DNA of 47,605 bases, from the NCBI GenBank assembly GCA_024642005.1, contig JAHECA010000026.1, positions 1 through 47,605 of the forward strand. The letters are read 5' to 3'. Positions 9,844-23,644 of the stretch are shown in pieces; position 1 is the first letter of the stretch; every line of letters starts with the position of its first letter. The stretch comes from Robiginitalea sp. Its GTDB lineage: Bacteria > Bacteroidota > Bacteroidia > Flavobacteriales > Flavobacteriaceae. The position numbers and the translations under genes were made by a program. The notes beneath the pieces were generated by a model. That model did not search any database, was not told the DNA's origin, and worked only from the letters and a program-made list of their open reading frames with translations.

Positions 9844-9893
9844 TGGCGTTGTTGGTGATCCCTAAAATTAGGCTTTAGCGCCCGTTCTGGTTA

Positions 9894-9905
9894 TGACCTG
9901 GGTCA
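9894..9905. promoter_or_regulatory. FNR-type operator A, bidirectional (usp / archease-rtcB)
   Basis: Palindrome TGACCTGGGTCA, centre 9899.5. On the plus strand TAtcTTGC starts at 9929, and on the minus strand TAatTTTA starts at 9870. Both are 29.5 bp from the centre, placing the site near -41 for both promoters. The geometry fits a class II Crp/Fnr activator that replaces the -33 contact. Confidence 0.75.
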
Positions 9906-9979
9906 GTGTGCCAGACCGGCAACCGGGTTATCTTGCCGGAAAGCAAAAATCGGAAACAACCCTCTCAAAAGGCGATAGA

Positions 9980-10390
9980 ATGGCTACCCTGCTGGAACAT
10001 ACCACAGATGTTGCGGTACGTGTAACGGGCCAAACGCTGACCGGGGTTTTTGCCTCCGGCCTGGAGGCTATGAATCAAATCCTGGCCCCGCAATGCTGCC
10101 TCAGCCCGAAGCAGGCCGACTGCTGTATGGATGTGGCGCTCAAGGCTCCCGACCCTACCGCCCTGTTGGTCGATTTCCTGTCTGAATGCCTGGCGCTGAC
10201 CTATATCCACAAAACCCTTTTCTGTTTCGTACACTTCGACCAGCTGGAACCAACCCGGCTTCAGGCCCGGTTGTACGGGCACCGCTTCGGTTGCCTCGAA
10301 AACGAGATCAAGGCGGTAACCTTCCACACAGCCGACCTGCGTCAAAATCGGGAAGGCGTTTGGGAAACGCCCCTCCTATTCGACCTGTAA
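9980..10390 (+). CDS. Archease
   Basis: 136 aa. It begins MATLLEHTTDVAVRV, the usual archease start, and ends with the conserved ENEIKAVTFH...GVWETPLLFDL segment. Archease helps RtcB turn over by promoting guanylylation of the ligase. The in-frame ATG at 9893 lies in the FNR-type operator and before the -7 element, so the start at 9980 is preferred. The stop is followed directly by the ATG of rtcB with no gap, indicating tight translational coupling. Confidence 0.93.
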   Translation: MATLLEHTTDVAVRVTGQTLTGVFASGLEAMNQILAPQCCLSPKQADCCMDVALKAPDPTALLVDFLSECLALTYIHKTLFCFVHFDQLEPTRLQARLYGHRFGCLENEIKAVTFHTADLRQNREGVWETPLLFDL

Positions 10391-11839
10391 ATGAAAAAGA
10401 TAACCAAAGAAGCCATTGTGCAGCGCAACCCCTACCTCTGGGAAATCCCTGTCGGATTCCGGCCCGACATGCAGGTGCCGGCGCGCATTATCGCCTCGGA
10501 AACCCTGCTCGACGACATTTTGGACGACCGATCGCTCCAGCAACTGGTTAACGTAACCACCCTGCCCGGCATCAGGAAGGCAGCCTTCGTAATGCCCGAC
10601 GTGCACGAAGGCTACGGTTTCCCGATTGGCGGGGTGGCCGCCACCTCCTACCCGCACGGGGCCATCTCACCCGGAGGCATCGGGTACGACATCAATTGCG
10701 GGGTGCGGATGCTGGTCAGCGATTTGAATGAGGGGGAAACACGTCGGTACCTCCCGGAATTGATCCGGGTCCTGAACGAGCATATCCCTTCCGGTATGGG
10801 CACCCCGGGGCACCTGCTGCTGAACGACCAAGAGCTCGACCAGGTATTGGCAACCGGGGCCGAATGGGCCGTCGGGCAGGGTTACGGCTCCCCCCGAGAC
10901 CTGGTCTATACCGAGAGCAACGGCCGCCTGCCGGCAGCCGATCCGTCCAGGGTATCAGAACGGGCGCGCCAACGGGGCCGTGACCAGTTGGGCACCATAG
11001 GCTCCGGGAACCATTTTGTGGAGGTCGGCTATGTGGACGAAATCCTTAATCCCCTGATCGCACATGGGTTCGGGCTTCGGGAAGGCCAGGTAACCGTACT
11101 CATCCACACCGGATCGCGGGGCCTGGGCCACCAGATTGCCACCGATTACATCCGCATCCTCATGGAGGCCATGCCTGCTTACGGCATTGAGCTGCCCGAC
11201 CGGGAACTGGCCTGCGTACCCCTCGATTCACCCGAAGGACAGGCCTATTTCGGCGCCATGTGTGCCGGGGCCAATTTCGCCTGGTGTAACCGGCAGCTGG
11301 TCTGCTGGGAAGTGCGCCAGGCCTGGTCGGCCGTATTCGGGAAAGCCGCCGGGCTGCCCGAGCTGCTGTACGACGTGGCCCACAACATCGCCAAGATCGA
11401 AACCCACACGGTGGCAGGCAAGACAGAGCAGCTCATTGTACACCGGAAAGGGGCGACGCGGGCCTTCGGCCCGGGCCATCCGGAGATTCCGGATGCCTAC
11501 CGGGCCTTTGGGCAACCCGTTTTGATTCCGGGAAGCATGGGCACCTCGTCTTATGTGCTGGCCGGTACCGCCTCCAGTTCGGCGCTCAGCTTTGGCTCCT
11601 GCTGTCATGGGGCTGGTCGCAGGCTTTCGCGTACAGCTGCCAAAAAACAGGTGAATGCCCCGGTTCTCAAGGAGGAGTTGCAGGAAGCCGGCATTTATCT
11701 GGAAGCCCCTTTCAGACGTATTGCGGAGGAAGCCCCAATGGCTTACAAGGATGTAAACCAGGTGGTGCGTTCTGTACAGGAGGCCGGTATTGCAGTGCCG
11801 GTGGCCCGGCTCAAACCGTTGGCTGTGATCAAAGGATAA
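10391..11839 (+). CDS. rtcB: RNA-splicing/repair ligase RtcB
   Basis: 482 aa. It joins RNA 2',3'-cyclic phosphate (or 3'-phosphate) ends to 5'-OH ends using GTP and Mn2+. Visible active-site motifs: PDVHEGYG (69-76), GGIGYDINCGVR (95-106, metal ligand Cys103), GSGNHFVEV (204-212), HTGSRGLGH (239-247), DVAHN (His331) and CHGAGR (405-410), whose His406 is the guanylylated residue. All key residues look intact. It is coupled to archease, and both lie behind the FNR-type operator, implying that RNA repair is induced under the condition sensed by that regulator. LOG follows 13 bp later. Confidence 0.97.
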   Translation: MKKITKEAIVQRNPYLWEIPVGFRPDMQVPARIIASETLLDDILDDRSLQQLVNVTTLPGIRKAAFVMPDVHEGYGFPIGGVAATSYPHGAISPGGIGYDINCGVRMLVSDLNEGETRRYLPELIRVLNEHIPSGMGTPGHLLLNDQELDQVLATGAEWAVGQGYGSPRDLVYTESNGRLPAADPSRVSERARQRGRDQLGTIGSGNHFVEVGYVDEILNPLIAHGFGLREGQVTVLIHTGSRGLGHQIATDYIRILMEAMPAYGIELPDRELACVPLDSPEGQAYFGAMCAGANFAWCNRQLVCWEVRQAWSAVFGKAAGLPELLYDVAHNIAKIETHTVAGKTEQLIVHRKGATRAFGPGHPEIPDAYRAFGQPVLIPGSMGTSSYVLAGTASSSALSFGSCCHGAGRRLSRTAAKKQVNAPVLKEELQEAGIYLEAPFRRIAEEAPMAYKDVNQVVRSVQEAGIAVPVARLKPLAVIKG

Positions 11840-11852
11840 CCTGAATCAATAA

Positions 11853-12674
11853 ATGATGCGTACCTTCAATAAAAGCAATATCCCAGTCGATATGGATAGC
11901 AAAAATTCACGCCCGGGGCGGACGGCACAGGTCCCATACAGCCTGATTGCTGAGAAGAAATACCTCGAAGGCCCGCGCAACCGCTTCAAAGAGTTTTGGT
12001 TTACCCTGAAGGTGGCCTATCACTTCATTCGCGGATTCCGGAAACTCCACTTTATCGGACCCTGCGTGACGGTTTTCGGATCGGCGCGTTTCCTGCCCGA
12101 CAACCCGTTCTACAAACAAGCCGAAGAGGTGGGGAAAACGCTGGCAGAAATGGGCTTTACGGTCATGACCGGAGGGGGGCCCGGCATCATGGAAGCCGCC
12201 AACAAAGGCGCCTACCTCAACGGGGGGTACTCCATCGGCTGCAACATCGTTTTGCCCAAAGAGCAAAAGCCGAACCCCTACCTGCACAAATGGGTCGACA
12301 TCCCTTATTTTTTCGTGCGCAAATTCCTCCTGCTCAAATATTCCTATGCCTTTATCGTAATGCCCGGGGGCATTGGCACCCTTGACGAGCTCTTTGAGTC
12401 GCTGACCCTGATACAGACCGGCATGATCAAGCACTTCCCGGTGGTGCTCTTTGGCCGTGAATACCATCAGGAACTCTACCACCACATCCAGGTTATGGCC
12501 AGCAACGAAAGCATTGCCCAGGAAGACATGGATTTGCTTTTTCTCACCGATTCGGTGGCCGAGATGCGCACGCACCTCGAGGTACACGCCGTCAGGAAAT
12601 TCGGGCTGGTCAAAAAACCCATCAAGTCGCGCTGGTGGCTGGGCGAAACCAACCGCCACCCCAAATGGGCCTGA
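11853..12674 (+). CDS. LOG-family protein (TIGR00730-like)
   Basis: 273 aa. The core has the LOG signature GGGPGIMEAANKGA (~110-123) and PGGIGTLDELFE (~171-182), and a long N-terminal extension of ~70 residues. Family members hydrolyse cytokinin riboside monophosphates or other nucleoside 5'-monophosphates to base and ribose phosphate. In a flavobacterium a nucleotide-salvage role is more likely than hormone synthesis (inference). It starts 13 bp after rtcB, so it is probably the third gene of that operon. An alternative start is the next codon (ATGATG). Confidence 0.9.
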   Translation: MMRTFNKSNIPVDMDSKNSRPGRTAQVPYSLIAEKKYLEGPRNRFKEFWFTLKVAYHFIRGFRKLHFIGPCVTVFGSARFLPDNPFYKQAEEVGKTLAEMGFTVMTGGGPGIMEAANKGAYLNGGYSIGCNIVLPKEQKPNPYLHKWVDIPYFFVRKFLLLKYSYAFIVMPGGIGTLDELFESLTLIQTGMIKHFPVVLFGREYHQELYHHIQVMASNESIAQEDMDLLFLTDSVAEMRTHLEVHAVRKFGLVKKPIKSRWWLGETNRHPKWA

Positions 12675-12721
12675 GCGGCTTTCAGCTGGTATACCCCTGC
12701 TGACATAAAAATTTTAGAAAC

Positions 12722-12733
12722 TGACTCAGGTCA
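12722..12733 (+). promoter_or_regulatory. FNR-type operator B, no gene downstream
   Basis: Palindrome TGACTCAGGTCA, centre 12727.5. TActTTCG starts at 12757, 29.5 bp from the centre, on the plus strand. The inferred start is about 12768. The minus strand has no -7 element at that spacing. Confidence 0.65.
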
Positions 12734-12767
12734 TTTCACAAGTCCTGTTTGCCGGCTACTTTCGTTT

Positions 12768-12980
12768 CGTTCCATTCAGGAAACTGTTCTGTGAAATCAA
12801 GAAATGGATAATCCTTAGCGAAAAGGGTTGTCCTGAGAATGTGTCGAAGATGTACCTTGATCCGGAAGCCCTTTCACACTAACTGGAAACAGGGCGTTTG
12901 AAAAGGTCTCGCATGGGGTTATCGCACAAAATCAACACCTTCTCCGAAGCCGGTCCGCCTCGGCGGATCGGCTTCTTTGA
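12768..12980 (+). ncRNA. Candidate FNR-regulated small RNA
   Basis: It is predicted from the promoter at operator B and a hairpin at 12946-12975 (GAAGCCG...CGGCTTC, 13 Watson-Crick pairs plus one G-T, small loop) followed by TTT. This would give about 210 nt. The U-tract is short, so transcripts may read on to the GAAA-loop hairpin at 13136-13165 (about 400 nt). No reading frame here looks protein-coding, and it does not resemble tmRNA, SRP RNA or RNase P RNA. Existence is inferred from signals only. Confidence 0.35.
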
Positions 12981-13045
12981 GGATTTATACGGCAAGGCCC
13001 TTATTTCCTATGGGGAGTGCGGGCCGTGTGGAAGTTCTCAAAATG

Positions 13046-13053
13046 TAACTTTG
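13046..13053 (+). promoter_or_regulatory. Possible second promoter in the orphan region
   Basis: TAACTTTG is a perfect match to TAnnTTTG, but no clear -33 element is seen. It would start a transcript of about 105-110 nt ending at the hairpin at 13136-13165. Confidence 0.3.
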
Positions 13054-13135
13054 AATGACTTTGGTGCTTGCAGTTTTAGCAATAAGACTGTACAAAGCAG
13101 AGGGGACAGATCGTTACTGATTGACAATTTTCACA

Positions 13136-13170
13136 GGAAACAGGAGGCGAAAGCCTCCTGTTTCCGTTTG
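13136..13170 (+). terminator. Strong GAAA-loop hairpin between convergent units
   Basis: GGAAACAGGAGGC (13136-13148) pairs over 13 bp with GCCTCCTGTTTCC (13153-13165) around a GAAA tetraloop. It is followed by GTTTGG on the plus strand. It lies 24 bp beyond the ExoIII stop and probably serves as a terminator, perhaps in both directions. The U-tract is poor. Confidence 0.55.
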
Positions 13171-13189
13171 GGCCCATCCGATGCATGGC

Positions 13190-13954
13190 TCATGCCTGCA
13201 GTTGCAGGGAGATAGGACAATGGTCTGAACCGGTAATGGCTGTATGAATCTCGGCCCGGGCCACCGTTGCTTCCAGTTCGGGGCTCAGCAGGAAATAGTC
13301 AATGCGCCAGCCGATGTTGCGCTGGCGGGCCTGGAAGCGGTAACTCCAATAGGTGAATATTTCCTGCTCCGGGTTGCGGACCCGGTAAATATCCAGCAAA
13401 CCGCTTTGCAGCAAGTTGTCCATCCCATCGATTTCAACCTGGGTATAGCCGGCCGTTTTGTTGTAATTGGCCTTGTCGTTTTTCAGGTCGATCGGCCGGT
13501 GGGCCACATTGAGGTCGCCACACACGACCAGTGGCTTTTTTTTGTGCAAGGCCGAGAGGTAGCCCTGAAAAGCCCTATCCCATTGCTTGCGGTAATCGAG
13601 GCGCTTGAGCCCCTGCCCGGAATTGGGCACATACACGTTCACCAGGTAAAAGGCTCCGAAATCGGCGCATTGAATACGGCCTTCCCCGCCCAGGGGATCG
13701 CTGTCGGGGCCATTTTCGACCGAGAGCGGCTTGGTGCGGCAGAGGATGGCGGTACCGGAATAACCCTTTTTCTCGCCTGCATGGGCAAATACGGTATAAT
13801 CCGAAAAGTTCGAGCAGATTTCGGACACGATCCCGGGATCTGCCTTGGTTTCCTGCAGGCAGATTACGTCAGGGTTTAAGGCGCGCAAGGCTTCCTCGAA
13901 GTTCTTGCCGGCAATGGCCCTAAGGCCATTTACATTCCAGGATACAAGCTTCAT
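13190..13954 (-). CDS. xth: Exodeoxyribonuclease III / AP endonuclease
   Basis: 254 aa, EEP superfamily. It cuts abasic sites and removes 3' blocks in base excision repair. Visible: KLVSWNVNGLRA (catalytic Asn), LQETKAD (metal-binding Glu), YSGTAIL, VNVYVPNSG, CGDLNVAH (Asp/Asn), WRIDYFL and GSDHCPI (catalytic Asp-His). The start at 13954 is chosen because the chain begins exactly at the conserved MKLVSWN. The upstream in-frame ATG would add 15 residues and lie in the promoter. A perfect -7 element lies 18 bp upstream. Confidence 0.95.
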   Translation of the reverse strand: MKLVSWNVNGLRAIAGKNFEEALRALNPDVICLQETKADPGIVSEICSNFSDYTVFAHAGEKKGYSGTAILCRTKPLSVENGPDSDPLGGEGRIQCADFGAFYLVNVYVPNSGQGLKRLDYRKQWDRAFQGYLSALHKKKPLVVCGDLNVAHRPIDLKNDKANYNKTAGYTQVEIDGMDNLLQSGLLDIYRVRNPEQEIFTYWSYRFQARQRNIGWRIDYFLLSPELEATVARAEIHTAITGSDHCPISLQLQA

Positions 13955-13972
13955 AACGGTACAGGGTTTGCG

Positions 13973-13980
13973 CAAAAATA
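13973..13980 (-). promoter_or_regulatory. -7 element of ExoIII gene
   Basis: The minus strand reads TATTTTTG (13980-13973), a full match to TAnnTTTG. It follows directly after the terminator stem of the BON operon and uses the same T-run. No FNR-type site is present. Confidence 0.6.
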
Positions 13981-14009
13981 CATCACCCCGGCGGAACATC
14001 CGCCGGGGT
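13973..14009 (-). terminator. Terminator of the BON-protein operon
   Basis: ACCCCGGCGGA (13985-13995) and TCCGCCGGGGT (13999-14009) form an 11-bp stem with a 3-nt loop. On the minus strand it is followed by GATGTATTTTTG. Confidence 0.7.
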
Positions 14010-14039
14010 ATATCGCCTCCTGCCGGTGCAATTTCAAGC

Positions 14040-14711
14040 TTAGGCGGTTACCGGATAGTAACGCACCTTGAGTTCGTTGATTACTTTGCGCACCCCGGGA
14101 GCCCGGAAGGCAGCGTGTTCCACAGCCTCCTTCTCGATCACCGAGCGAACCGACCCTTTTAAAAATACGGTATCGCCGTGCACATCGACCTCCACGGAGG
14201 TGGCATCGACATCGGCCAGGCGCCCGAGGGCCTTTTCTATTTTGTGCCGAACGTCTACCACCCGTATTTTAGGTTCGACCACCAGGTCTTCGGCATGGAC
14301 CTCGCGCACCCCCTGCAGGTGCCTGAGCACGTTTATAGCTGCGTATTTCTGGTAACCCCATTCGAATTTGCCGGAGAGGTATACATGACCGTCTTCCACT
14401 TTAAAGGCCATCTGCCCTTCCGGGACGGTCGCATTCCACTTAAGGGCATCGGCGGCAGCCCGGGCAATCTCGGGGTCGGTCCTTTTCAGGGCATCGCCGA
14501 AAAGCACCTGCACATCCATGGCCAGCCCACGCACTCCGGCTACTTTTTTAACGGCCTTCTCGGCGGCCAGTTTTTTGGCAAAGCTATCCAGGGTGCCCGT
14601 GAGGGTTACGATCCCGTCTTCCACGATTACGCCGATTTGTGTCTGGTCTATGTCGGGCTGCCATTTCAGCTCTTCCAATACATCTTTTTTAAGTGTTGCA
14701 TCTGTTTTCAT
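14040..14711 (-). CDS. Triple-BON-domain protein (second in operon)
   Basis: 223 aa with three BON-like repeats (~5-70, ~78-145, ~152-220). Each has the pattern V.V.DG.V.L.G.V.....K..AE..A....GVR.V. There is no signal peptide, unlike OsmY, so it is probably cytoplasmic. BON domains bind phospholipid or other hydrophobic ligands, and cytoplasmic multi-BON proteins are common in stress gene clusters with Usp. It is clearly a paralogue of the next gene upstream (both start MKTDA, and domain 2 ends W-G-Y-Q-K in both). The gap between them is 43 bp. Confidence 0.92.
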   Translation of the reverse strand: MKTDATLKKDVLEELKWQPDIDQTQIGVIVEDGIVTLTGTLDSFAKKLAAEKAVKKVAGVRGLAMDVQVLFGDALKRTDPEIARAAADALKWNATVPEGQMAFKVEDGHVYLSGKFEWGYQKYAAINVLRHLQGVREVHAEDLVVEPKIRVVDVRHKIEKALGRLADVDATSVEVDVHGDTVFLKGSVRSVIEKEAVEHAAFRAPGVRKVINELKVRYYPVTA

Positions 14712-14754
14712 GGTGCCTCTTTTTTGTCGGGCAGGGCCTGGTTGCGGCAGGGGG

Positions 14755-15423
14755 TCAGACCAGGGCCTCGGTATAGCGGACGATCAGGTTATTCTTTACC
14801 TCATACACGCCCGGGGCGTTGAATGCCACACGTTCTGCATCTTCTTTCTCTTTTAGGGAATGGACGGTGCCTTCGAGGGTAACCGTATGACCGGATGTGA
14901 GCACGCGAATGCCTTTTGCTTCCAGGTCGGCTGACCTTTCAAAGGCCTCCTTGATGCGTTTTTTGACTTCAAGGGGTACAATGCCCTGACTGATGGTGAT
15001 GCTGTTGATCACCCCTTTTACCCCAGCCAGGTCTCTGACGGCATTCTTGGCCGATTCCTTCTGGTAGCCCCAGCGGACCTGCCCGGTCAGGTATACCCAC
15101 CCATTCTCAACTTTGGGAATGATGGCGTCTTCAGGAACAGAAGCATGCCAGGCCAGGGCGTTCACAACGGCCTTGGCGATATCGGTATCCGTTTTTTCAT
15201 CTTCCAGGCCGTAGCTTACCACAATATCTTCGGCAACGGCCCTAACACCTTTAACCCGCTTGGCTGCCTTTTCTGCGGCAATTTTTTTGGCATAGCTGTC
15301 TACCTCCCCGCTCAGGGTAACCACGCCCTCTTCTACAGAAACTCCGATCTTGGCCTCATCAATGCTGGGTTCCCAGATCAGTTCATCCTGCACATCCCGT
15401 TTGATTTGAGCATCTGTTTTCAT
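14755..15423 (-). CDS. Triple-BON-domain protein (first in operon)
   Basis: 222 aa, the same three-BON layout as its downstream paralogue: IGVSVEEGVVTLSGEVDSYA, VENGWVYLTGQVRWGYQK, then SGHTVTLEGTVHSLKEKEDA. No signal peptide. It is transcribed first in a two-gene unit whose promoter has an FNR-type palindrome (15490-15501) and a -7 element at 15466. The function is a stress-related ligand-binding protein; the ligand is unknown. Confidence 0.92.
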   Translation of the reverse strand: MKTDAQIKRDVQDELIWEPSIDEAKIGVSVEEGVVTLSGEVDSYAKKIAAEKAAKRVKGVRAVAEDIVVSYGLEDEKTDTDIAKAVVNALAWHASVPEDAIIPKVENGWVYLTGQVRWGYQKESAKNAVRDLAGVKGVINSITISQGIVPLEVKKRIKEAFERSADLEAKGIRVLTSGHTVTLEGTVHSLKEKEDAERVAFNAPGVYEVKNNLIVRYTEALV

Positions 15424-15489
15424 GATTTTACTGATTTATATAATTAAAATATCATGGAGTAAGCTACACAACCTGACCCAACTACTAAA

Positions 15490-15501
15490 TGATGTATATC
15501 A
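15490..15501 (-). promoter_or_regulatory. FNR-type operator C2 (BON operon)
   Basis: TGATGTATATCA is a perfect palindrome of the classic FNR half-site TGAT, centre 15495.5. On the minus strand TAgcTTAC starts at 15466, 29.5 bp from the centre. The inferred start is about 15455, 32 nt before the ATG. Confidence 0.7.
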
Positions 15502-15530
15502 GGCTGCAATTCCATGCAGCCCTCCCACCT

Positions 15531-15542
15531 TGACATAAGTCA
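15531..15542 (+). promoter_or_regulatory. FNR-type operator C1 (tlpA-like gene)
   Basis: TGACATAAGTCA, centre 15536.5, lies 41 bp from the centre of C2. Rightward, the expected position holds only a poor -7 element (TAcacacc, one base off). A better TAacTTGG lies at 15592-15599. It could serve the thioredoxin-like gene at 15618 or help at C2. This is the weakest of the seven in promoter geometry. Confidence 0.45.
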
Positions 15543-15617
15543 GGCCGGCAACTGGGTAACGCAGGTTACACACCCTTAATCAGATAACCCGTAACTTGGC
15601 CTGCAAATCGCCTGCCA

Positions 15618-16208
15618 TTGAAAATTCGCTTTAACAAAAGTTGGTGGCCCTACCTGCTGTTGGCCCTGGTTTACCTGGTGCTTTACCTGACTGGGACGCG
15701 GGCCGAGGTTTTCGGCTTCCTGCAGCGCGGCTTGCTGGCCACTGGCCTCATGAGCGCCCAGGCAGTGGAAGCGCCTGTGACAGAACGGGAATTCCTCGAT
15801 GAGCAGGCTTACTCCCTTGTACTGGCCGATTCCGGAGGGCAGCTGCACCGCCTGTCTGAATTCCGCGGCAAGGTGGTGCTGGTGAACCTATGGGCAACCT
15901 GGTGTCCACCCTGCATTGCCGAAATGCCCGGACTCGAAAAGTTGTACCAGCGAACAAAAGAGGATGTTGTCTTCATCATGATAGCCCGCGACCGCGATTT
16001 TGAGTTATCCAGGGTATTCGTTCAGCGCAAGGGCTATGAAGTGCCCATTTACTATGCCCAGGGGCCATTGCCCCGCCAGCTTTCCAGCAACGGCATCCCG
16101 GCCACCTTTGTGATTGCTCCCGACGGCAGGCTGGCCTTTTCGCATACCGGCATGGCCGATTACGACCACCCAGACATCGAAAAATTCCTCCGTGGCCTGA
16201 AAGAATGA
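15618..16208 (+). CDS. TlpA/ResA-like membrane-anchored thioredoxin
   Basis: 196 aa. An N-terminal membrane anchor (WWPYLLLALVYLVLYLTG, ~9-26) is followed by a periplasmic thioredoxin fold with active site WATWCPPC (Cys96, Cys99) and the cis-proline segment GIPATFV. It is likely a periplasmic thiol-disulfide reductase, as in cytochrome c maturation or stress repair. The only good start is TTG at 15618. It lies downstream of FNR-type site C1. A tandem homologue follows with its own promoter. Confidence 0.85.
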   Translation: MKIRFNKSWWPYLLLALVYLVLYLTGTRAEVFGFLQRGLLATGLMSAQAVEAPVTEREFLDEQAYSLVLADSGGQLHRLSEFRGKVVLVNLWATWCPPCIAEMPGLEKLYQRTKEDVVFIMIARDRDFELSRVFVQRKGYEVPIYYAQGPLPRQLSSNGIPATFVIAPDGRLAFSHTGMADYDHPDIEKFLRGLKE

Positions 16209-16239
16209 ACCCGGTTTAAACGTTATTAACGAAACGCGA

Positions 16240-16247
16240 TACCTTTG
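16240..16247 (+). promoter_or_regulatory. -7 element of second tlpA-like gene
   Basis: TACCTTTG, a perfect consensus, 19 bp before the ATG at 16267. No FNR-type palindrome lies near, so the second thioredoxin gene is probably expressed on its own. Confidence 0.6.
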
Positions 16248-16266
16248 TAACGCTGAAGTCTTGTCC

Positions 16267-16863: not shown

Positions 16864-17125
16864 TGCGAATGCCTGCAGCCGCTCCGGGGATGCCGCCGGA
16901 GGATCCTTCCGCCGATTACAACTGTTTTAGAGCGGGCCGTGCGTTTGAAAGCACCGAAAGTTAAAATGACTTCCATCATAGCCGAAAGCTGTTTCAGGCT
17001 GTACTTTTAGGGTGAGATTAATCAGGGATGCTGAAACCAAATTCCCTATCTTTAAACGGCTTTCCCGAAACCTGCAAATCGGGGGGCCAGATGAGCTATT
17101 ATTCAACCTTGTAAACCAATCCAAA

Positions 17126-17992
17126 ATGTCCCGTATTTACTCCCTTGCATTGCTCGCCATCCTGTTGCTGACCGGAGGCAAAGCCGAATCCCAAATGCCG
17201 GCTCCCGGCGCCACGCTTTATACGGTGCGCGACCTGATGGATCAGGATGCAAAAGGTGTCCTCAAACAAATCGCCGACCTGGGCTACGTCAACATTGAGG
17301 CGACCAACTACCAGGATGGCAAATTCTACGGTATGGCGCCAGCCGAATTCAAGGCCTATTTGGAAAGCCTGGGCCTGGAGCCTCTGAGCGTACACCAGGG
17401 CGGGGTTACCCTGGAAAACGCCGATCAGTATATCGCAGACACCAGGGCTGCCGGGTTCAAATATTTCGTTATTCCGGTACCTCCAATGGGCATGTTCAAA
17501 TACGATACGAAATCGCGGACCATGTCGATGGAAGGCACCCCGGAAGCGATCACCTCTATCCTCAATACCCTGGCCGCCAAATGCAAGGCTGCCGGCCTGG
17601 AGTTGCTCTACCACAACCATAACTTTGAGTTTGTGCCCGATGCAAACGGGGTGGTACTGCTCGACTACATGCTGGAAAACACAGACCCCGAACTGGTCAA
17701 TTTCCAGATGGACCTGTATTGGGTGACCAAGGCAGGGGCAGACCCCCTGGCCTATTTCGAAAAATACCCGGGCCGGTTTAAAGTCTGGCACGTAAAAGAT
17801 ATGGACGACCAGGGTCGCTTCGCCCCGGCCGGAACCGGCAACATCGACTTCAAACGCATCCTCGCGGAGAAGGAAAAGTCGGGCATGCAATACTATATCG
17901 TGGAGCAAGACATGACCTTTGACGGGATGCAGCCCATGGAGGCCATCCAAATTAGTTACGATAACCTGAAAACACTGGGTTTCAGGAAGTAA
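17126..17992 (+). CDS. Secreted sugar phosphate isomerase/epimerase-like protein
   Basis: 288 aa. Signal peptide SRIYSLALLAILLLTGGKAESQ, then an AP-endonuclease-2/xylose-isomerase-like TIM barrel. Candidate metal ligands are in the strands YHNHNFEF, QMDLYWV and KVWHVKDMD, with a C-terminal YIVEQD. In Bacteroidota such secreted proteins act on free sugars or sugar acids; the substrate is not visible. The start at 17126 is chosen for the signal peptide; an upstream in-frame ATG (17012) would bury it behind 38 residues. A possible -7 element TATCTTTA lies at 17047-17054. Confidence 0.85.
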   Translation: MSRIYSLALLAILLLTGGKAESQMPAPGATLYTVRDLMDQDAKGVLKQIADLGYVNIEATNYQDGKFYGMAPAEFKAYLESLGLEPLSVHQGGVTLENADQYIADTRAAGFKYFVIPVPPMGMFKYDTKSRTMSMEGTPEAITSILNTLAAKCKAAGLELLYHNHNFEFVPDANGVVLLDYMLENTDPELVNFQMDLYWVTKAGADPLAYFEKYPGRFKVWHVKDMDDQGRFAPAGTGNIDFKRILAEKEKSGMQYYIVEQDMTFDGMQPMEAIQISYDNLKTLGFRK

Positions 17993-18052
17993 TAGCCCTT
18001 CAGCAGGGCAGTTCGGCAGGGGGATTCCCCCCTTTGATAAACCAGGTTTGAT

Positions 18053-19153
18053 ATGAAAGGATCCTGGGTATTGGGCAAGGTGGCAGGGATAAAGATCCAG
18101 GTTCACTGGACCTTTACGCTCCTGTTGCTCTGGGTGTTGTTCTCGAACTTCAGGGAAGGGGGCGACGGGGTTTCCGCCCTGTTCAGCCTGGCCCTGGTGC
18201 TGGTGTTGTTTGGCTGCGTGGTACTTCACGAACTGGGCCATGCCCTGATGGCACGCAAATACCAGATCACCACCCGGTCGATAACCCTCCTCCCCATAGG
18301 CGGGGTAGCTGCCCTCGAGAAGATCCCCGAAAAACCAAAGGAAGAACTGGCCGTCGCCCTGGCCGGGCCCGCCGTGAACGCCGGTATTGCCCTGGTGCTT
18401 CTGTTGCTGCTCCCCCTGAGGCACTATGCGGGGTTCGAACCCGAAGACTGGGAAACCTTCTTCAGCCAACCTTCGGTGGCCGGTTTCCTGATCTATTTGT
18501 TTATGGCCAATGCCATGCTGGTGGCCTTTAACCTGATACCGGCCTTCCCCATGGACGGGGGACGGGTCCTGCGCGCCTTGCTGGGTTTTTATTACTCCCG
18601 GGCCCGTGCCACCGAAATTGCCGCCCGCCTGGGACAGGCTGTTGCCTTCCTCTTCCTCTTTCTGGGTTTGTTCCTGAACCCCTTCCTGGTGATCATTGCC
18701 ATTTTTGTGTATTTCGGGGCTTACGCGGAAAACCAGATGGTGCAGCAGGAAGACCGGCTCAAAGGGCATACGGTTCGGGAGGCACTGCTCACCCAGATTA
18801 GCCTGTTGCCCTGTGATGCCACCCTGCAACAGGCCATTGACCTGATCCTGAAAGGGACCGAAAAAGACTTCCTGGTCGTTCGGGAGGGAGGTGTATGCGG
18901 CATCCTGAACAACGCCGAGATCGCCCGTGCCGCCACAAGGCCCGATACCCCGGTATCGGAGCTTATGCTCGGGGAGTTTCCATCGGTACGTCCCGATGCC
19001 GGCCTTACGGAAACCATACAGCTGATGAGCCGGGAAAAACAGAAATTCCTGCCGGTTCTGGAAGACGGGCGGCTATTGGGGGCCATCAGCAGTGAAAACA
19101 TCAGCGAGTTTATCCTGCTGCGCACTGCCGCGGGCCATTCGACCGCTACCTGA
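18053..19153 (+). CDS. Site-2 protease family (M50) metalloprotease with CBS domains
   Basis: 366 aa. Membrane zinc protease: HELGH at 59-63 and the distal ligand in NLIPAFPMDGGRV (Asp168). About six hydrophobic segments fill residues 15-245, then a pair of cytoplasmic CBS domains (~255-355). This is the archaeal/bacterial S2P-CBS type, in which CBS binding of adenine nucleotides may gate proteolysis inside the membrane. The substrate, perhaps an anti-sigma factor, is unknown. It lies among stress-island genes but has no FNR-type palindrome upstream. Confidence 0.92.
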   Translation: MKGSWVLGKVAGIKIQVHWTFTLLLLWVLFSNFREGGDGVSALFSLALVLVLFGCVVLHELGHALMARKYQITTRSITLLPIGGVAALEKIPEKPKEELAVALAGPAVNAGIALVLLLLLPLRHYAGFEPEDWETFFSQPSVAGFLIYLFMANAMLVAFNLIPAFPMDGGRVLRALLGFYYSRARATEIAARLGQAVAFLFLFLGLFLNPFLVIIAIFVYFGAYAENQMVQQEDRLKGHTVREALLTQISLLPCDATLQQAIDLILKGTEKDFLVVREGGVCGILNNAEIARAATRPDTPVSELMLGEFPSVRPDAGLTETIQLMSREKQKFLPVLEDGRLLGAISSENISEFILLRTAAGHSTAT

Positions 19154-19189
19154 TCAGTAAAAGCCATATCACCAGGCAGTTATTTACAT

Positions 19190-19201
19190 TGACACAGGTC
19201 A
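19190..19201 (+). promoter_or_regulatory. FNR-type operator D (hydrolase-phosphoribosyltransferase)
   Basis: TGACACAGGTCA, centre 19195.5. TAccTTAC starts at 19225, 29.5 bp from the centre. The inferred start is about 19236, 46 nt before the ATG. Confidence 0.72.
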
Positions 19202-19281
19202 TTTCCGGGCTGGGAATATGCCCTTACCTTACCTGAACCAAGCTGGCCCAGTGCCATGCTGTTCACTCAAACCCTGAAATC

Positions 19282-19953
19282 ATGAAACGCGAGGAGATGG
19301 CTCCCGGGTCTGTTGAGATTCCCCTGCCCGGGTTGGAGCTGCCCGGATTGCTCTATCTGCCTGCCTTAGCCCACGGGCTTGTACTTTTTTCACACGGCAG
19401 CGGCAGCAGCCGATACAGCACCCGCAACAATTATGTAGCCCGGGTACTCTATCGGCGGGGCCTGGCCGCCCTGTTGTTCGACCTGCTGACCGAAGCAGAA
19501 GATCAAACCTATGAAAACCGCTTCGATATTGATTTGCTCACAAGGCGCCTGATCGCCGTGACCGAATGGGCCGTAAAGAACCCCTTGCTGAAAAACCTGC
19601 CCCTGGCCTATTTCGGGGCCAGCACAGGGGCCGCCTCGGCTTTGAGAGCTGCCGCCTACTTCAAAAAACGAATTGCCGCTGTGGTGTCGAGAGGAGGGCG
19701 GCCCGACCTGGCAGGCGGCGCCCTGCCGCTGGTAAAAGCCCCTACCCTGCTGCTGGTGGGCGGGTTCGACGGGGCAGTGATTGAACTCAACCGCCAGGCG
19801 GCCCGGCAACTGCAATGCCCCTATGAAGTAGTGCTGATTCCCGGGGCCACCCATCTCTTTGAAGAAGCGGGCACCCTGGAGCAGGTAGCCGAGGAGTCGG
19901 CCGACTGGTTCCTCCAAAAAATGGCTAAAAAACAAGATTATGTTTCGGGATAG
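19282..19953 (+). CDS. Dienelactone-hydrolase-like alpha/beta hydrolase
   Basis: 223 aa. Alpha/beta hydrolase with oxyanion region FSHGSGSSR, nucleophile in GASTG (Ser114), acid in GGFDG (Asp163) and catalytic His191 (GATHLF). No signal peptide. The substrate is unknown. It overlaps the phosphoribosyltransferase gene by 14 bp. Hydrolases of this kind are often linked or fused to COG1926 phosphoribosyltransferases in stress clusters, so the two probably act in one pathway. The FNR-type promoter at 19190-19232 serves both. Confidence 0.87.
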   Translation: MKREEMAPGSVEIPLPGLELPGLLYLPALAHGLVLFSHGSGSSRYSTRNNYVARVLYRRGLAALLFDLLTEAEDQTYENRFDIDLLTRRLIAVTEWAVKNPLLKNLPLAYFGASTGAASALRAAAYFKKRIAAVVSRGGRPDLAGGALPLVKAPTLLLVGGFDGAVIELNRQAARQLQCPYEVVLIPGATHLFEEAGTLEQVAEESADWFLQKMAKKQDYVSG

Positions 19954-20593
19954 GACAGAAGCGGGGTACCTGCTCGTACCCCATGTGGAGCACCTCAAGG
20001 GAACCCAGGTTGTTGTGGTGGCCATCCCCAGGGGCGGGCTGCCGATCGGGGCCATTCTGGCCAAGGCCCTGGAGGCACCCCTCGATATAGCCCTGACCAA
20101 AAAAATCGGCCATCCCCTGAACAAAGAATACGCCATCGGGGCTGTGAGCCTCGACCAGCTGGTACTCAGCAAACCGGAAGGGGTTAGCCAGGATTACCTC
20201 GATGCCGAAACCCGGCGTCTGCGCGCCTCACTTCGCGAGCGGTTCGACCAGTTTTACCGGACAAAAGCCCCTGCCGACTGGAAGGGAAAAACGGTACTTG
20301 TAACCGACGACGGCATCGCCACGGGCAATACCCTGCGCGTAACCGTGGCCCTGATTGCCGAATCGGCGCCTAAGGCCATTGTAATCGCCATTCCGGTAGC
20401 CCCCCGGGGGGCCGTTGAAAAATTGGAAGCCATGCCCGAAGTGCAGGAAGTCATTTGCCTGGAAACCCCGTACGATTTTTACGCTGTCGGGCAATTCTAC
20501 GAAGATTTCCGCCCGGTAAGCGACTCGGAGGCCATCCAGATCTTTGAAAGCGGCAGCCCGCAGCCGGGAGTCGCTGCCCGGGCAGGCAGCTAA
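19940..20593 (+). CDS. Phosphoribosyltransferase-like protein (COG1926 type)
   Basis: 217 aa. It has the type I PRTase PRPP loop VLVTDDGIATGNT (~119-131), an N-terminal AIPRGGLPIG loop and the KKIGHP segment typical of COG1926 proteins, whose acceptor base is not established. Similar proteins belong to the mycobacterial DosR dormancy regulon. It overlaps the upstream hydrolase by 14 bp, so translation is coupled. It converges on the methyltransferase, sharing CTAA (20590-20593) as both stop codons. Confidence 0.88.
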   Translation: MFRDRTEAGYLLVPHVEHLKGTQVVVVAIPRGGLPIGAILAKALEAPLDIALTKKIGHPLNKEYAIGAVSLDQLVLSKPEGVSQDYLDAETRRLRASLRERFDQFYRTKAPADWKGKTVLVTDDGIATGNTLRVTVALIAESAPKAIVIAIPVAPRGAVEKLEAMPEVQEVICLETPYDFYAVGQFYEDFRPVSDSEAIQIFESGSPQPGVAARAGS

Positions 20594-21237
20594 GCCTTCA
20601 AGGCACTGACCACCACGAAAGAGCCCCGATCGTGCCCTGCTTCGGGTATCTGAATTTCATGTATGTCATCCAGCGCCCCGAAAAGCGTCTGGTTGTATTC
20701 CGGTTTTTTAAATCCTGTTTCTTTCAGCAGATCGGCAATGCGCGCTACCGAATAGAACCTGGCCTTGCTGTAAAAATCTGACCAGGGTCCCCTCTCGCTA
20801 TAGGACCGGGCTATCGGCCGGTCTTCAGGCAGGAATGCTGCGATTAAAGCCCCCCCGGGTTTTAAAACCCGGTAAGCCTCCTGAAAAGCCCGTTTCGGGC
20901 TGTCGAGGAAACACAGGGTCACAAAGAGGACGAAATCGAATTGCATGGCCGAATAGGGCAATTGCTCGGCCCGGGCTTCCATCACTTCAATACCCCGTTT
21001 GCGGGCTTTTTCACCCATGGGGACCGAAGGCTCCACGCCTTCACGTATTCCCAGGGGGGCGGCAAACCGGCCCGTTCCGAGGCCCACCTCGATGCCGTGG
21101 AGTTCTTCGGGCAAGCGGTTGAAGTGCACCCGGATCGCTTCCAGCTCAGCGGTGTAAACCTCCGCATGTTTTTCATACCAGGCCTCATAGGCATCGACCT
21201 GTTGGTCGAATACTTCATTTTTGCTAATCGTTTTCAT
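20590..21237 (-). CDS. SAM-dependent methyltransferase (class I)
   Basis: 215 aa. Motif I is GIEVGLGTGRFAAPLGI (~48-64), the acidic motif II region is GIEVMEARAEQLPY, motif III is FDFVLFVTLCFLD, and RVLKPGGALIAAF follows. This is a UbiE/COG2226-type small-molecule methyltransferase; the substrate is unknown. It is last in the apparent leftward unit baeRF-dodecin-methyltransferase, 86 bp after dodecin across a GC-rich hairpin. It meets the phosphoribosyltransferase tail to tail with a 4-bp overlap. Confidence 0.88.
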   Translation of the reverse strand: MKTISKNEVFDQQVDAYEAWYEKHAEVYTAELEAIRVHFNRLPEELHGIEVGLGTGRFAAPLGIREGVEPSVPMGEKARKRGIEVMEARAEQLPYSAMQFDFVLFVTLCFLDSPKRAFQEAYRVLKPGGALIAAFLPEDRPIARSYSERGPWSDFYSKARFYSVARIADLLKETGFKKPEYNQTLFGALDDIHEIQIPEAGHDRGSFVVVSALKA

Positions 21238-21251
21238 GGCACAGGGATTTT

Positions 21252-21272
21252 GGCCCGCCTGGCAGGCGGGCC
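21252..21272. repeat. GC-rich palindrome between dodecin and methyltransferase
   Basis: GGCCCGCCTG and CAGGCGGGCC flank a single G, a near-perfect stem. There is no U-tract on either strand. It may stabilise or process the dodecin mRNA rather than terminate it. Confidence 0.45.
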
Positions 21273-21323
21273 CGATTCTGTTTTGTCGGGCTGGCCTGCC
21301 GGCCTGCGCCCGGTTGGGGTCGT

Positions 21324-21527
21324 CTAATGTTTGATGCCAAAGGTTAACTTGGCATTGACGCGGTACTGGGAAATCTTGTTGTCCTTAACAGTTACCTGCA
21401 TATCCTGGATGTATACCGACTTGATATCCTTGACGGTTTTGGCAGCATCATCGATAATGTTCTGAACGGCATCCTCAAAACTCACAGAAGAGTTCCCAAG
21501 AATTTCAATAACTTTTAATACACTCAT
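21324..21527 (-). CDS. Dodecin
   Basis: 67 aa, full length. The dodecin pattern is clear: KVIEILGNSSVSFEDAVQNI and KISQYRVNAKLTFGI. Dodecins form 12-mers that store or shield flavin. The position of the flavin-stacking Trp of known dodecins (SVW) appears as Tyr39 (KSVYIQD), while Gln54 is present, so ligand binding may differ. It lies 53 bp downstream of the baeRF-type gene on the same strand. Confidence 0.93.
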   Translation of the reverse strand: MSVLKVIEILGNSSVSFEDAVQNIIDDAAKTVKDIKSVYIQDMQVTVKDNKISQYRVNAKLTFGIKH

Positions 21528-21580
21528 GTCGCTTCGGATTTAGGGTTAATCACTGATTTATATGTAGTCTGATCTCGGTT

Positions 21581-22759
21581 TTATGCATATCTGAACAAGG
21601 CGGCACAACTCGCCCCGGCAGGCATTTCTTCAGCTGTTTTGCGATACACGCGGCCGCCGTGCTGCAGGGCCTGCGAAACTGCCCAATCCAGGAGGGAAGC
21701 ACTAAACGGGGTGGGGGTTTCCTCCCACCGGATCTGGCCTGTTTCGGCTTCAAACTTACCTAACACGTCGTTTTCGGCATCTACAAAAAGGCTGTCGACC
21801 TTCCCTTCGTACAGGGCAGGCAGGATGGCTGCCAGATCTGCCGAGGCCTTCCCGCTGCCGTGGTACTGCAGGAATTTCTGCCATTTTCTGATCCCTTCCT
21901 TTTCAAAGACCGGTTTCATGCGCTGCCACGAAAGCCTATGGAGTTCCGTATCGGGAGATTCAGAAAGGTTGCACACGATGGGCTCCTCTTCGATTAAACC
22001 GTAGGCGCTTACCTCCCTGTATATGGCTGCAAGGTATTCCTGGGACGCGATGAGCAAAGGCCGGGGTTTTTTAGCTAAAATGGTGAGCAGGCCCTGGTCG
22101 ACCCCGCGGAAATAGCGGGCAATTTCGTCGTGTCGGTCGCGGTCGGCTCCGTCGTGCCCGTGATAGCCGGCACCTGCATAGGCCTGGTGCTGGCTGCGGA
22201 ATTGCAGTACTTTTTGTTCGTAGTCGTACCCAACGCGCTCTTCGAGCCGCTCGGGGATCAGTTCCCGTATATCCAACTGGGTCATCGATTCGCGATTTCC
22301 TTCAAACAAGCGGATACGTTCCAACTCCAGGGACAGCAGATAAAAAGCTCCCGAGCCGGTGAGCATCGGAATCAGGGGCAACAAGTGGAACGACGGTGCC
22401 AGACGATGTTCCTGTTTTACGGCATAGGGCAACCTGAAGGTGAGCAGTTTCCGGGCCGTTGCAAAAAGGGCAAGGCCCTGGGCCTGATGCCTCCAGAAAT
22501 CACTGTCTTCAGTCAATTCAAACAGGGGTGACAACCGCTGTTCGAGGGCTGTCTCTGGCAGGCCGGCAGCTGTTAATTCATTTCGGATCAGCCGCAATTC
22601 GGCATCGAGGGAACGGGCGTCGCGACGATGCTGTACTTCTTCCCCCCTGGCATGCGTCGGCAGAAAAACGGAAATACAGTGGGTATCTTTGGTCGCGATC
22701 AGTTCGAGCATGTCTGACTGATTTATTTTATCCTTGTCAGTGCGTTCTGTAGTCGTCAT
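21581..22759 (-). CDS. Bacterial eRF1-like protein (baeRF family)
   Basis: 392 aa. The layout matches bacterial homologues of archaeo-eukaryotic release factor 1: an N-terminal mixed domain (CISVFLPTHARGEEV), a central domain with LLSLELERIRLFEG, a His/Asp/Gly-rich linker (GYHGHDGADRDRHDEI, ~198-213), a helix (RYFRGVDQGLL), and a C-terminal L7Ae-like domain (ILPALYEGKVDSLFVD). No GGQ motif is seen, so peptidyl-tRNA hydrolysis as in eRF1 is doubtful. The family is predicted to act at ribosomes under stress. First gene after FNR-type operator E, leading to dodecin. Confidence 0.85.
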   Translation of the reverse strand: MTTTERTDKDKINQSDMLELIATKDTHCISVFLPTHARGEEVQHRRDARSLDAELRLIRNELTAAGLPETALEQRLSPLFELTEDSDFWRHQAQGLALFATARKLLTFRLPYAVKQEHRLAPSFHLLPLIPMLTGSGAFYLLSLELERIRLFEGNRESMTQLDIRELIPERLEERVGYDYEQKVLQFRSQHQAYAGAGYHGHDGADRDRHDEIARYFRGVDQGLLTILAKKPRPLLIASQEYLAAIYREVSAYGLIEEEPIVCNLSESPDTELHRLSWQRMKPVFEKEGIRKWQKFLQYHGSGKASADLAAILPALYEGKVDSLFVDAENDVLGKFEAETGQIRWEETPTPFSASLLDWAVSQALQHGGRVYRKTAEEMPAGASCAALFRYA

Positions 22760-22814
22760 GGCATTCGGTTTTTATGGTTAAATGGAAGGTAATGGAACGG
22801 GCCCTACCCCGAAA

Positions 22815-22826
22815 TGATTTGGGTCA
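22815..22826 (-). promoter_or_regulatory. FNR-type operator E (baeRF-dodecin unit)
   Basis: TGATTTGGGTCA, a mixed TGAT/TGAC palindrome, centre 22820.5. On the minus strand TAccTTCC starts at 22791, 29.5 bp from the centre. The inferred start is about 22780, 21 nt before the ATG. Confidence 0.72.
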
Positions 22827-22927
22827 GGGCTTCTTTGAATTCGGAACCGTTACCCATCCGGCCGGGATGCTGTTCCTGCGGGTTCTCTTGGGCTACTGAA
22901 GAAGCCTACAGCATGCATTCCGATCCC

Positions 22928-23584
22928 CTACAGGACAAGGCCTTTGGAGTCTTCGCCACGAATAATTCCGGCCTTTTCCAGTTGGTTCATCAGGCTTTTC
23001 ACATAGTCGTCAACGGTCCTGCGGATGTTGATCGGATCGGTTATGTCGAAGGATCCCACCCAAACCAGGTGGTTCTGATCTGCAACCTGCAGCTGGTAGA
23101 CCGCGGTCTCCACATGGTATACATGGTATTCCCTCACGGCCTGGGGTTGGTAGTAGATGTCCTGGTACCGGTAATAGTAGCGGCCGAACCGGCCGTAATA
23201 GTCGTAGGTATACCCGGTTCCTGTCAGGTGTTGGTGGTGTTGTTCGACCCCTATTACCGAGGTAATCATTACGGCGTCGAAACCCTGGCCTGAGAGGTCA
23301 TCGGCCATCCGGTCGAGCTCCGTTTCGCTCAGGGGACCACTGGTTATGCCTGTCTCGAGGGCGTTATAGGCTTGCATGGCCTGCATGGATCGTCTCTGAA
23401 GGGCGCTGCTGAGCTCGTCCTCAAAAACCTGGCGGGCGGTCAGGTTATCGGTCATGGCCAATACCAGCATTTTTTCTGACCTGAACCCGGGGGCCAGGGA
23501 TTCGTTGCTCCAACTGTCTGCAAAGCGCGTGGAAGAGCAGGAAAACAAAGCAAGGGCAAACAACAGGGAAAGTAGCGTTTTCAT
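22928..23584 (-). CDS. Uncharacterised stress-island lipoprotein
   Basis: 218 aa. Signal peptide with lipobox (LLSLLFALALFSC, lipid-modified Cys14). A Tyr-rich stretch (YTYDYYGRFGRYYYRYQD) sits mid-chain, and the C-terminus ends VDDYVKSLMNQLEKAGII. It resembles small lipoproteins of the DUF4136 kind, but the match is loose and no function can be given. The start at 23584 is fixed by the signal peptide and by the -7 element (23609-23602); the in-frame ATG at 23632 lies upstream of that promoter. It has its own FNR-type operator, and its stop lies 102 bp from operator E. Confidence 0.8.
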   Translation of the reverse strand: MKTLLSLLFALALFSCSSTRFADSWSNESLAPGFRSEKMLVLAMTDNLTARQVFEDELSSALQRRSMQAMQAYNALETGITSGPLSETELDRMADDLSGQGFDAVMITSVIGVEQHHQHLTGTGYTYDYYGRFGRYYYRYQDIYYQPQAVREYHVYHVETAVYQLQVADQNHLVWVGSFDITDPINIRRTVDDYVKSLMNQLEKAGIIRGEDSKGLVL

Positions 23585-23632
23585 CGGACCGTATTTTGGT
23601 CCAAAACTATTGAGGGTTGGGCTGCGAGCCAA

Positions 23633-23644
23633 TGACCTGGGTCA
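23633..23644 (-). promoter_or_regulatory. FNR-type operator F (lipoprotein)
   Basis: TGACCTGGGTCA, identical to operator A, centre 23638.5. On the minus strand TAgtTTTG, a perfect -7 consensus, starts at 23609, 29.5 bp from the centre. The inferred start is about 23598, 14 nt before the ATG. Confidence 0.78.

Follow-up and report, generated by a model that had tools for sequence, protein, structure and literature searches.

Eight predicted promoters in contig C4 of a Robiginitalea sp. genome (Bacteroidota; Flavobacteriaceae; GenBank assembly GCA_024642005.1, contig JAHECA010000026.1) carry a Crp/Fnr-type palindrome at one fixed distance from the −7 element. The window that we analyzed is this entire contig, 47,605 bp of a 3.44-Mb genome in 78 contigs. 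Our best reading is that the window belongs to a Bacteroidota phospho-signaling system running a survival regulon that resembles those of DosR and the lxa locus. We propose, with a probability of roughly 0.6, that these are class II promoters with the site centered at −41.5 and that the window activator is a hybrid protein, a receiver domain fused to a Crp-family activator, which would be phosphorylated by an adjoining PAS/GAF kinase and run a protective program.

The pattern TGAY-N4-RTCA (TGAYNNNNRTCA) has eight matches in the window, every one within positions 9894 to 23644. The original prediction, made from the letters of the window, had listed seven of these at their correct positions and had found none in the other intergenic regions; none indeed occurs outside 9894 to 23644, but an eighth (TGACTTCCATCA, at 16967) had been overlooked. 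Sites of this kind are not equally common in shuffled DNA, as 100 dinucleotide shuffles of the window gave a mean of 1.79 palindromes and at most 5, against the 8 found. We define a composite as the palindrome plus TAnnTT, with the first T exactly 29.5 bp from the palindrome center. At seven of the eight sites a TAnnTT lies at this spacing, giving eight promoters. For the 16 site-strands of the window, 0.036 promoters are expected per offset, so that the probability of at least eight is about 7e−17; other offsets have 0 or 1.

Palindrome TGACCTGGGTCA (9894 to 9905, no strand) serves two divergent promoters, with −7 elements TAATTT (9865 to 9870, − strand), leading into a gene for a universal stress protein (Usp), and TATCTT (9929 to 9934, + strand), leading into the archease-RtcB-LOG row. 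On the + strand follow TGACTCAGGTCA (12722 to 12733; TACTTT at 12757 to 12762), TGACTTCCATCA (16967 to 16978; TACTTT at 17002 to 17007), and TGACACAGGTCA (19190 to 19201; TACCTT at 19225 to 19230). The − strand has TGATGTATATCA (15490 to 15501; TAGCTT at 15466 to 15461), which is the BON promoter, TGATTTGGGTCA (22815 to 22826; TACCTT at 22791 to 22786), and a second copy of TGACCTGGGTCA (23633 to 23644; TAGTTT at 23609 to 23604). The spacing is confirmed for the seven promoters that had been predicted to lead into adjacent units, and 16967 makes eight; the promoter that had been missed leads into genes for a TIM-barrel protein and an M50-CBS protease. For 12722 the geometry stands, but the promoter leads into about 400 nucleotides without an evident gene. 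The remaining palindrome, TGACATAAGTCA (15531 to 15542, no strand), has no TAnnTT at 29.5 bp on either strand; compared with the BON-promoter site, its center is 41 bp (some four turns of the helix) farther from the BON promoter.

In Flavobacterium psychrophilum the flavobacterial sigma-A box TAnnTTTG spans −12 to −5 (PMC9723704). Since the first T lies 29.5 bp from the palindrome center and the published box begins at −12, the center falls at −41.5, in agreement with the predicted site near −41. A rigid −41.5 is the position of class II activators, and the predicted window promoters appear to fit this position for the Crp/Fnr family.

The regulon had been thought to span about 14 kb. Instead, it extends over several contigs and has counterparts in other genera. 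TGAY-N4-RTCA occurs 201 times in the whole genome, and the reversed pattern, used as a control, 56 times. A scan with the composite, which the original prediction had suggested, covered about 770 kb, window included, and 103 of the 201 sites; these were stretches chosen for holding sites plus the whole of contig C9, a choice based on the palindrome and not on the −7 element. It returned 35 promoters at 29.5 bp (33 sites), compared with 0 to 3 at each other distance. Composites on C21, C64, and C74 precede genes for Usp, Hsp20, a PAS kinase, a protein that we take to be YtxH-like, a ribonucleotide reductase, presumably of class II, a flavodoxin-type protein, TauE, and thioredoxin. On a different contig, a composite precedes a fused cbb3 oxidase gene (COX1 plus FixO). 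Two further genes after composites are named by resemblance, one hemN-like (Radical_SAM on a 272-residue piece) and one rnfB-like (Fe-S domains).

Six proteins in the genome have a cNMP-binding fold. The hybrid, our favored candidate, is encoded at C21:27837-28904, and its 356 residues comprise a receiver, the cNMP-binding fold, and an HTH_Crp_2 domain. The upstream gene, which overlaps that of the hybrid, encodes a kinase with PAS domains, GAF_2, HisKA, and HATPase_c. A composite at C21:24164 precedes the kinase gene, and because the kinase-hybrid operon carries this composite of its own, it is probably autoregulated through it. Receiver residues D9, D52, and K104 are invariant in all 17 aligned sequences; with the receiver aspartate, the acidic pair, the lysine, and a kinase alongside, the hybrid is predicted to be a response regulator. 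Its only cysteines are Cys 40 and Cys 51. In the kinase, no segment is strongly hydrophobic (best 19-residue mean, 1.32). Among solved structures, 362 chains were found with the hybrid; the best 60 of these match either its receiver or its Crp part, and none matches both. Another of the six, an Fnr-like protein (C9:226216-226791), adjoins a Usp gene and lies about 2.6 kb from the composite of ccoN. It scores 102 bits against an Fnr cutoff of 228 and has cysteines at positions 5, 8, 54, 107, and 194.

The bases of the half-sites bear on which regulator reads which site. FNR of the Escherichia coli type has a TTGAT-N4-ATCAA box, a cysteine-bound Fe-S cluster, and a class II palindrome. The window is like E. 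coli FNR in having a Crp/Fnr palindrome at the class II position, but A or C stands before TGA and the best candidate, the hybrid, appears to lack a cysteine cluster. In the window, the base before TGA is A in 9, C in 4, and T in 1 of 14 half-sites; T occurs there in 4 of 46 half-sites of the genome's own islands (C4, C21, C64, and C74, delimited after seeing the data) and in 0 of 20 at its other sites. The strict FNR box was therefore ruled out. The term "FNR-type" in the original prediction holds insofar as this is a Crp/Fnr-family activator site with a gene set of the stress or low-oxygen type, but not in the sense of a strict FNR box.

Position 5 of the half-site separates two subtypes. 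It is C in 7, T in 3, G in 2, and A in 2 of the 14 window half-sites. The own islands have C at 22 and A at 8 of 46, compared with C at 1 and A at 16 of 20 for the other sites of the genome (Fisher test, 6e−4, with islands delimited after seeing the data and kinship ignored). Named loci with hybrids of 50 to 60% identity (L099 to L107; 36% G+C) have C at 43 and A at 14 of 80, against A at 37 and C at 0 of 44 in Usp loci of genomes lacking the hybrid (Fisher test, 2e−11, with half-sites taken as independent and kinship ignored, as in all the subtype tests). Within the genus, A occupies position 5 in 12 of 64 half-sites of hybrid and BaeRF regions versus 8 of 10 in Fnr and ccoN regions (p = 3e−4). 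The C-rich subtype of the window thus appears to match the promoters around the hybrid and its PAS kinase, and the A-rich subtype, found at the cbb3 oxidase, would fit the Fnr-like protein.

The full hybrid is present in 7 of 10 genomes of the genus, own included, with relatives 65 to 69% identical; G060 has a piece at a contig end. In these 10 genomes, the search found none in G061 and G062, and the two that lack it form a natural comparison set for regulon loss. In 100 kb of sequence from five same-genus hybrid loci there are 22 composite sites, and the genes that follow them encode Usp, YtxH, kinase, and Hsp20. A composite precedes the kinase gene in the own genome, in four of these five loci, and in several relatives. 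BaeRF, a Balon-type protein encoded in the window, has matches in 5 of the 10 genomes, and its composite is found in four that bear the hybrid (own, G068, G063, and G067). In G061, which lacks the hybrid, no composite occurs in 55 kb around BaeRF, and the cbb3 gene retains an A-rich composite, TGACAAATATCA-29.5-TAGTTT. This same-genus pattern, drawn from few genomes, is supportive of the hybrid and not decisive.

Beyond the genus, full-length matches to the hybrid below 1e−60 are found in 25 of 60 family genomes by our count, own included. The regulator gene, rather than the sites, was the criterion by which the stretches of relatives and the named loci were chosen. Nine hybrid-bearing relatives (133 sites) have 106 composites at 29.5 bp versus 0 to 9 at other distances, and nine further stretches hold 3, 4, 3, 4, 7, 9, 0, 8, and 2 composites. 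The named-genome set is the best 80 of 584 relatives (L099 to L178); by their titles, 78 belong to Bacteroidota groups, L125 is an "uncultured bacterium," and L135 is an "Alphaproteobacteria bacterium." In these 80 loci there are 96 composites at 29.5 bp against a mean of 6.8, with at least one in 44. A second peak of 59 sites, in 36 loci, lies at 51.5 bp. For 20 of these 59, an exact TGA-N6-TCA is present precisely 22 bp closer to the promoter, which again places it at 29.5 bp, and for 24 more the motif at that place has a single mismatch. When fifteen alternative shifts were tried, no exact motif was found and never more than 1 with a single mismatch. Such tandem promoters precede genes for the cbb3 oxidase (confirmed for L117 and L163), Usp, and kinases, among others. 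Genome-wide, sites exceed the reversed control by a median factor of 2.25 in the 25 hybrid genomes and 1.30 in the 35 without (p = 0.001, kinship uncorrected), and median Usp domain matches are 14 with and 6 without the hybrid (22 and 22 genomes, kinship uncorrected). As a marker of the hybrid, the site excess was discarded, having exceptions both ways (for example, G054, 1.19 with; G020, 3.50 without).

We then counted composites upstream of matches to the linked genes in 20 + 1 + 80 loci, the matches being BLAST places rather than curated orthologues. The expectation that the same sites would precede orthologues is borne out for YtxH (7 of 7), Hsp20 (9 of 13), and M50-CBS (2 of 2), and many other rows have none. 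Further counts were obtained for dodecin (2/3), BON1 and BON2 (4/7 each, in the same loci), Usp (32/62, of which 27 show the complete pattern and the others TGA-N6-TCA only), CbpA (2/5), TrxA (2/10), TauE (1/1), and phosphoribosyltransferase (1/4). For the kinase, the count was 12/121, mostly other PAS kinases; for beta-CASP it was 1/8, at a place off the locus edge and not credible. No composite was found in these loci for archease (0/2), RtcB (0/2), LOG (0/3), ExoIII (0/4), hydrolase (0/3), methyltransferase (0/2), BaeRF (0/1), lipoprotein (0/5), ribonucleotide reductase (0/5), ATP-cone (0/5), or the hybrid (0/94), the last because the hybrid follows the kinase; some other misses arise because the genes sit inside a row. 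TlpA, TIM-barrel, AckA, Pta, and flavodoxin had no match whatsoever in these loci.

Individual loci repeat parts of the set. The archease-RtcB genes of G056 at first seemed to lack a site (short locus L097), a view overturned by a wider stretch: a composite (L209:11301, − strand) precedes a BaeRF-methyltransferase-archease-RtcB row, and the 20-kb stretch holds 12 composites. About 14 kb of L108, from an Allomuricauda sp. metagenome-assembled genome, carries genes for kinase, hybrid, Hsp20, ribonucleotide reductase, Usp, phosphoribosyltransferase, archease, methyltransferase, and dodecin. In G011 (L084:12117) and G037 (L080:14975), M50-CBS is divergent from a PfkB-type kinase gene (an assignment checked by Pfam for G011), with one site forming a composite on each side.

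Several observations weigh against assigning these promoters to the hybrid. No composite occurs at 36 of the best 80 named hybrid loci or at the G042 locus L218, many orthologue rows lack one, and the archease stretch of G056 lies more than 1 Mb from its hybrid. The G061 comparison is a single genome whose BaeRF is only 38% identical. The site subtype is intermediate around the orthologous hybrids of G056, G037, G011, and G001 (A at 67 and C at 42 of 154), loci with hybrids of only about 40% identity have A at 65 and C at 17 of 124, and in G007 a ccoN-like gene has a C-type site, TGATCGAGGTCA, in front of it. Usp genes were compared in 22 of the 24 relatives that have the hybrid and in 22 of the 35 that lack it; composites precede the top-scoring ones in 2 of 30 cases with and 4 of 30 without the hybrid. 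For lower-scoring Usp genes the counts are 10 of 20 in each group (20 consecutive rows each; E values of 1e−21 to 3e−20 and 4e−22 to 2e−16; a few of the rows are second domains of one gene). The notion that only the hybrid makes composites at Usp genes is therefore unsupported. Because these composites are equally frequent with and without the hybrid, the geometry does not require it, and a further activator must use this geometry too, the Fnr-like protein being the simplest choice.

That parity is an argument for a competing possibility, which we regard as unlikely though well ahead of the others: the Fnr-like protein would be the main activator of all the promoters, and at its sites the hybrid would play a minor or overlapping part. 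Both proteins have an E-x-x-I-R motif in the recognition region, and the Fnr-like protein is of the classical type for low-oxygen control. The subtypes speak against a single reader, differing between own islands and other sites and between the hybrid or BaeRF and the Fnr or ccoN regions of the genus, as does the clustering of composites around the hybrid gene. It is improbable that the activator is another Crp-family protein of the genome, whether L005, L006, or one in which no domain was detected: there are six proteins with the fold, and L005 has, by eye, an E-x-x-S-R motif, but L001, L004, L005, and L006 have no composite at 29.5 bp within about 3.3 kb, and the remaining two have links to composites. 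That the pattern arose by chance, or marks a repressor or structural site, is most improbable of all, because, short as the pattern is and although one of the eight window sites lacks a promoter at 29.5 bp, the shuffles, the window probability, and sharp spacing spikes in three sets rule out a chance origin and the class II position argues against a repressor.

Returning to the hybrid as window activator, we infer its binding, its phosphorylation, the signal, and the direction of regulation in the following model. The PAS/GAF histidine kinase would be switched on when oxygen or respiratory energy declines, an idea suggested by the cbb3 oxidase in the company of these genes and by the gene set; F. 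psychrophilum raises its cbb3 oxidase under oxygen limitation (PMC9723704). The kinase would phosphorylate the hybrid, and a hybrid dimer would activate from −41.5. The program raised would comprise Usp, Hsp20, Balon-type ribosome hibernation, archease-RtcB RNA repair, dodecin, BON, the M50-CBS protease, and ribonucleotide reductase. The separate Fnr-like protein would use the same spacing with a more A-rich site, as at the cbb3 oxidase. A bolder version, to which we give even odds, is that Bacteroidota possess a one-protein "phospho-FixK," a response regulator with Crp/Fnr output, which recognizes a site subtype of its own, TGAYC...GRTCA, at a rigid −41.5 (present in other lineages as a tandem pair with a 22-bp shift). 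This protein would control a DosR-like dormancy regulon that includes Balon hibernation, RNA repair, and a candidate small RNA, and an Fnr-like protein would act beside it on an A-rich subtype with the same spacing.

Other bacteria are already known to place similar sets of genes under two-component systems or Crp-family regulators. DosR (DevR) of Mycobacterium tuberculosis is likewise under two-component control (PMC5309233, PMC4082495, PMC2275270), and Usp, Hsp20 (HspX), M50 protease (Rip3), RtcB, PfkB, B12 ribonucleotide reductase, and phosphoribosyltransferase seem common to both, a likeness of family names and not of compared sequences. The Balon homologue Rv2629 (PMC10901736) lies within the DosR block Rv2623 to Rv2631, and Rv2631 (RtcB) did not respond to hypoxia in one chemostat study. 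The DosR output is NarL-type, whereas that of the hybrid is a cNMP-binding fold plus HTH_Crp_2; the DosR sensors are heme GAF kinases, and the kinase here has PAS and GAF_2 domains. The low-oxygen-activated (lxa) locus of Burkholderia cenocepacia shares Usp (six genes), a heat-shock protein, and a BON protein, and its control likewise involves both a two-component system and a Crp-family regulator; in a relative, a regulator resembling FixK/Anr is subordinate to FixLJ (PMC6127331). In FixLJ-FixK and lxa, receiver and Crp-family activator are separate; here they are fused in one protein. NmpRSTU of Myxococcus xanthus is also a two-component oxygen-limitation system with Usp and CBS proteins but has an NtrC-like regulator and a sigma-54 site (PMC11841059). 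Balon operons place a BaeRF homologue near RtcB, Hsp20, and other stress genes, and the accessible text names no regulator of this kind (PMC10901736). Our literature search, outside which most subscription papers lay, found no title or abstract describing the hybrid or its regulon in Bacteroidota, which is weak evidence of absence. New here appear to be the joining of receiver and Crp parts in one protein, the subtype of the site, its rigid spacing, and the occurrence in this phylum.

If correct, this reading would mean that a phylum common in the sea and in soil has a defined program for dormancy or low oxygen, with a simple sequence code. Many genes for Usp, BON, dodecin, hibernation, and RNA repair would come under a single switch. 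A similar survival set would then stand under activators that differ between phyla: NarL-, NtrC-, or FixK-type or a receiver-Crp fusion. Because the geometry is rigid, the regulon can be predicted from sequence and directly tested.

The genes served by the window promoters are as follows. Usp (PF00582) lies at 8983 to 9843 (−). The divergent row encodes archease (9980 to 10390, +; PF01951; start by our reading, with the frame open from 9893 inside the site), RtcB RNA ligase (10391 to 11839, +; PF01139), and a LOG-type protein (11853 to 12674, +; profile match to TIGR00730). Archease, which was discarded as a marker, is encoded in just 2 of 60 family genomes, the own genome being one of them; it makes RtcB work faster (PMC3973293). 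BON-domain proteins 1 and 2 (both PF04972) occupy 14755 to 15423 and 14040 to 14711 (−). After 16967 come the TIM-barrel protein (17126 to 17992, +; PF01261; start by our reading) and the M50 metalloprotease with a CBS domain (18053 to 19153, +; PF02163, PF00571), and after 19190 an alpha/beta hydrolase (19282 to 19953, +; a weak assignment, PF00561 being below its cutoff) and a phosphoribosyltransferase (19940 to 20593, +; PF00156). On the − strand, the BaeRF protein (21581 to 22759; PF18849) is followed by dodecin (21324 to 21527; PF07311) and, downstream of it, a methyltransferase (20590 to 21237; PF08241). BaeRF homologues include Balon, a ribosome hibernation factor whose gene adjoins RtcB and Hsp20 genes (PMC10901736); the window protein scores 92.5 bits, below the 330-bit cutoff of the hibernation-factor model.

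The 12722 promoter leads into a candidate untranslated transcript (12769 to 13170, +). No gene is evident in it, its predicted fold is strong (z = −6.9), and a hairpin lies near its end. An Rfam search of 12769 to 13170 gave no match to a known RNA. In G068, of the same genus, the corresponding place has a composite and the same hairpin, and comparison of the two revealed no common small reading frame. The hairpin may merely be the terminator of the convergent ExoIII gene. Finally, the 23633 promoter leads into a putative lipoprotein gene (22928 to 23584, −; no Pfam match). By eye, L013:10401-11069 on C74 encodes a paralogue; here too a composite (C74:10008) lies upstream, and a small frame separates the two.

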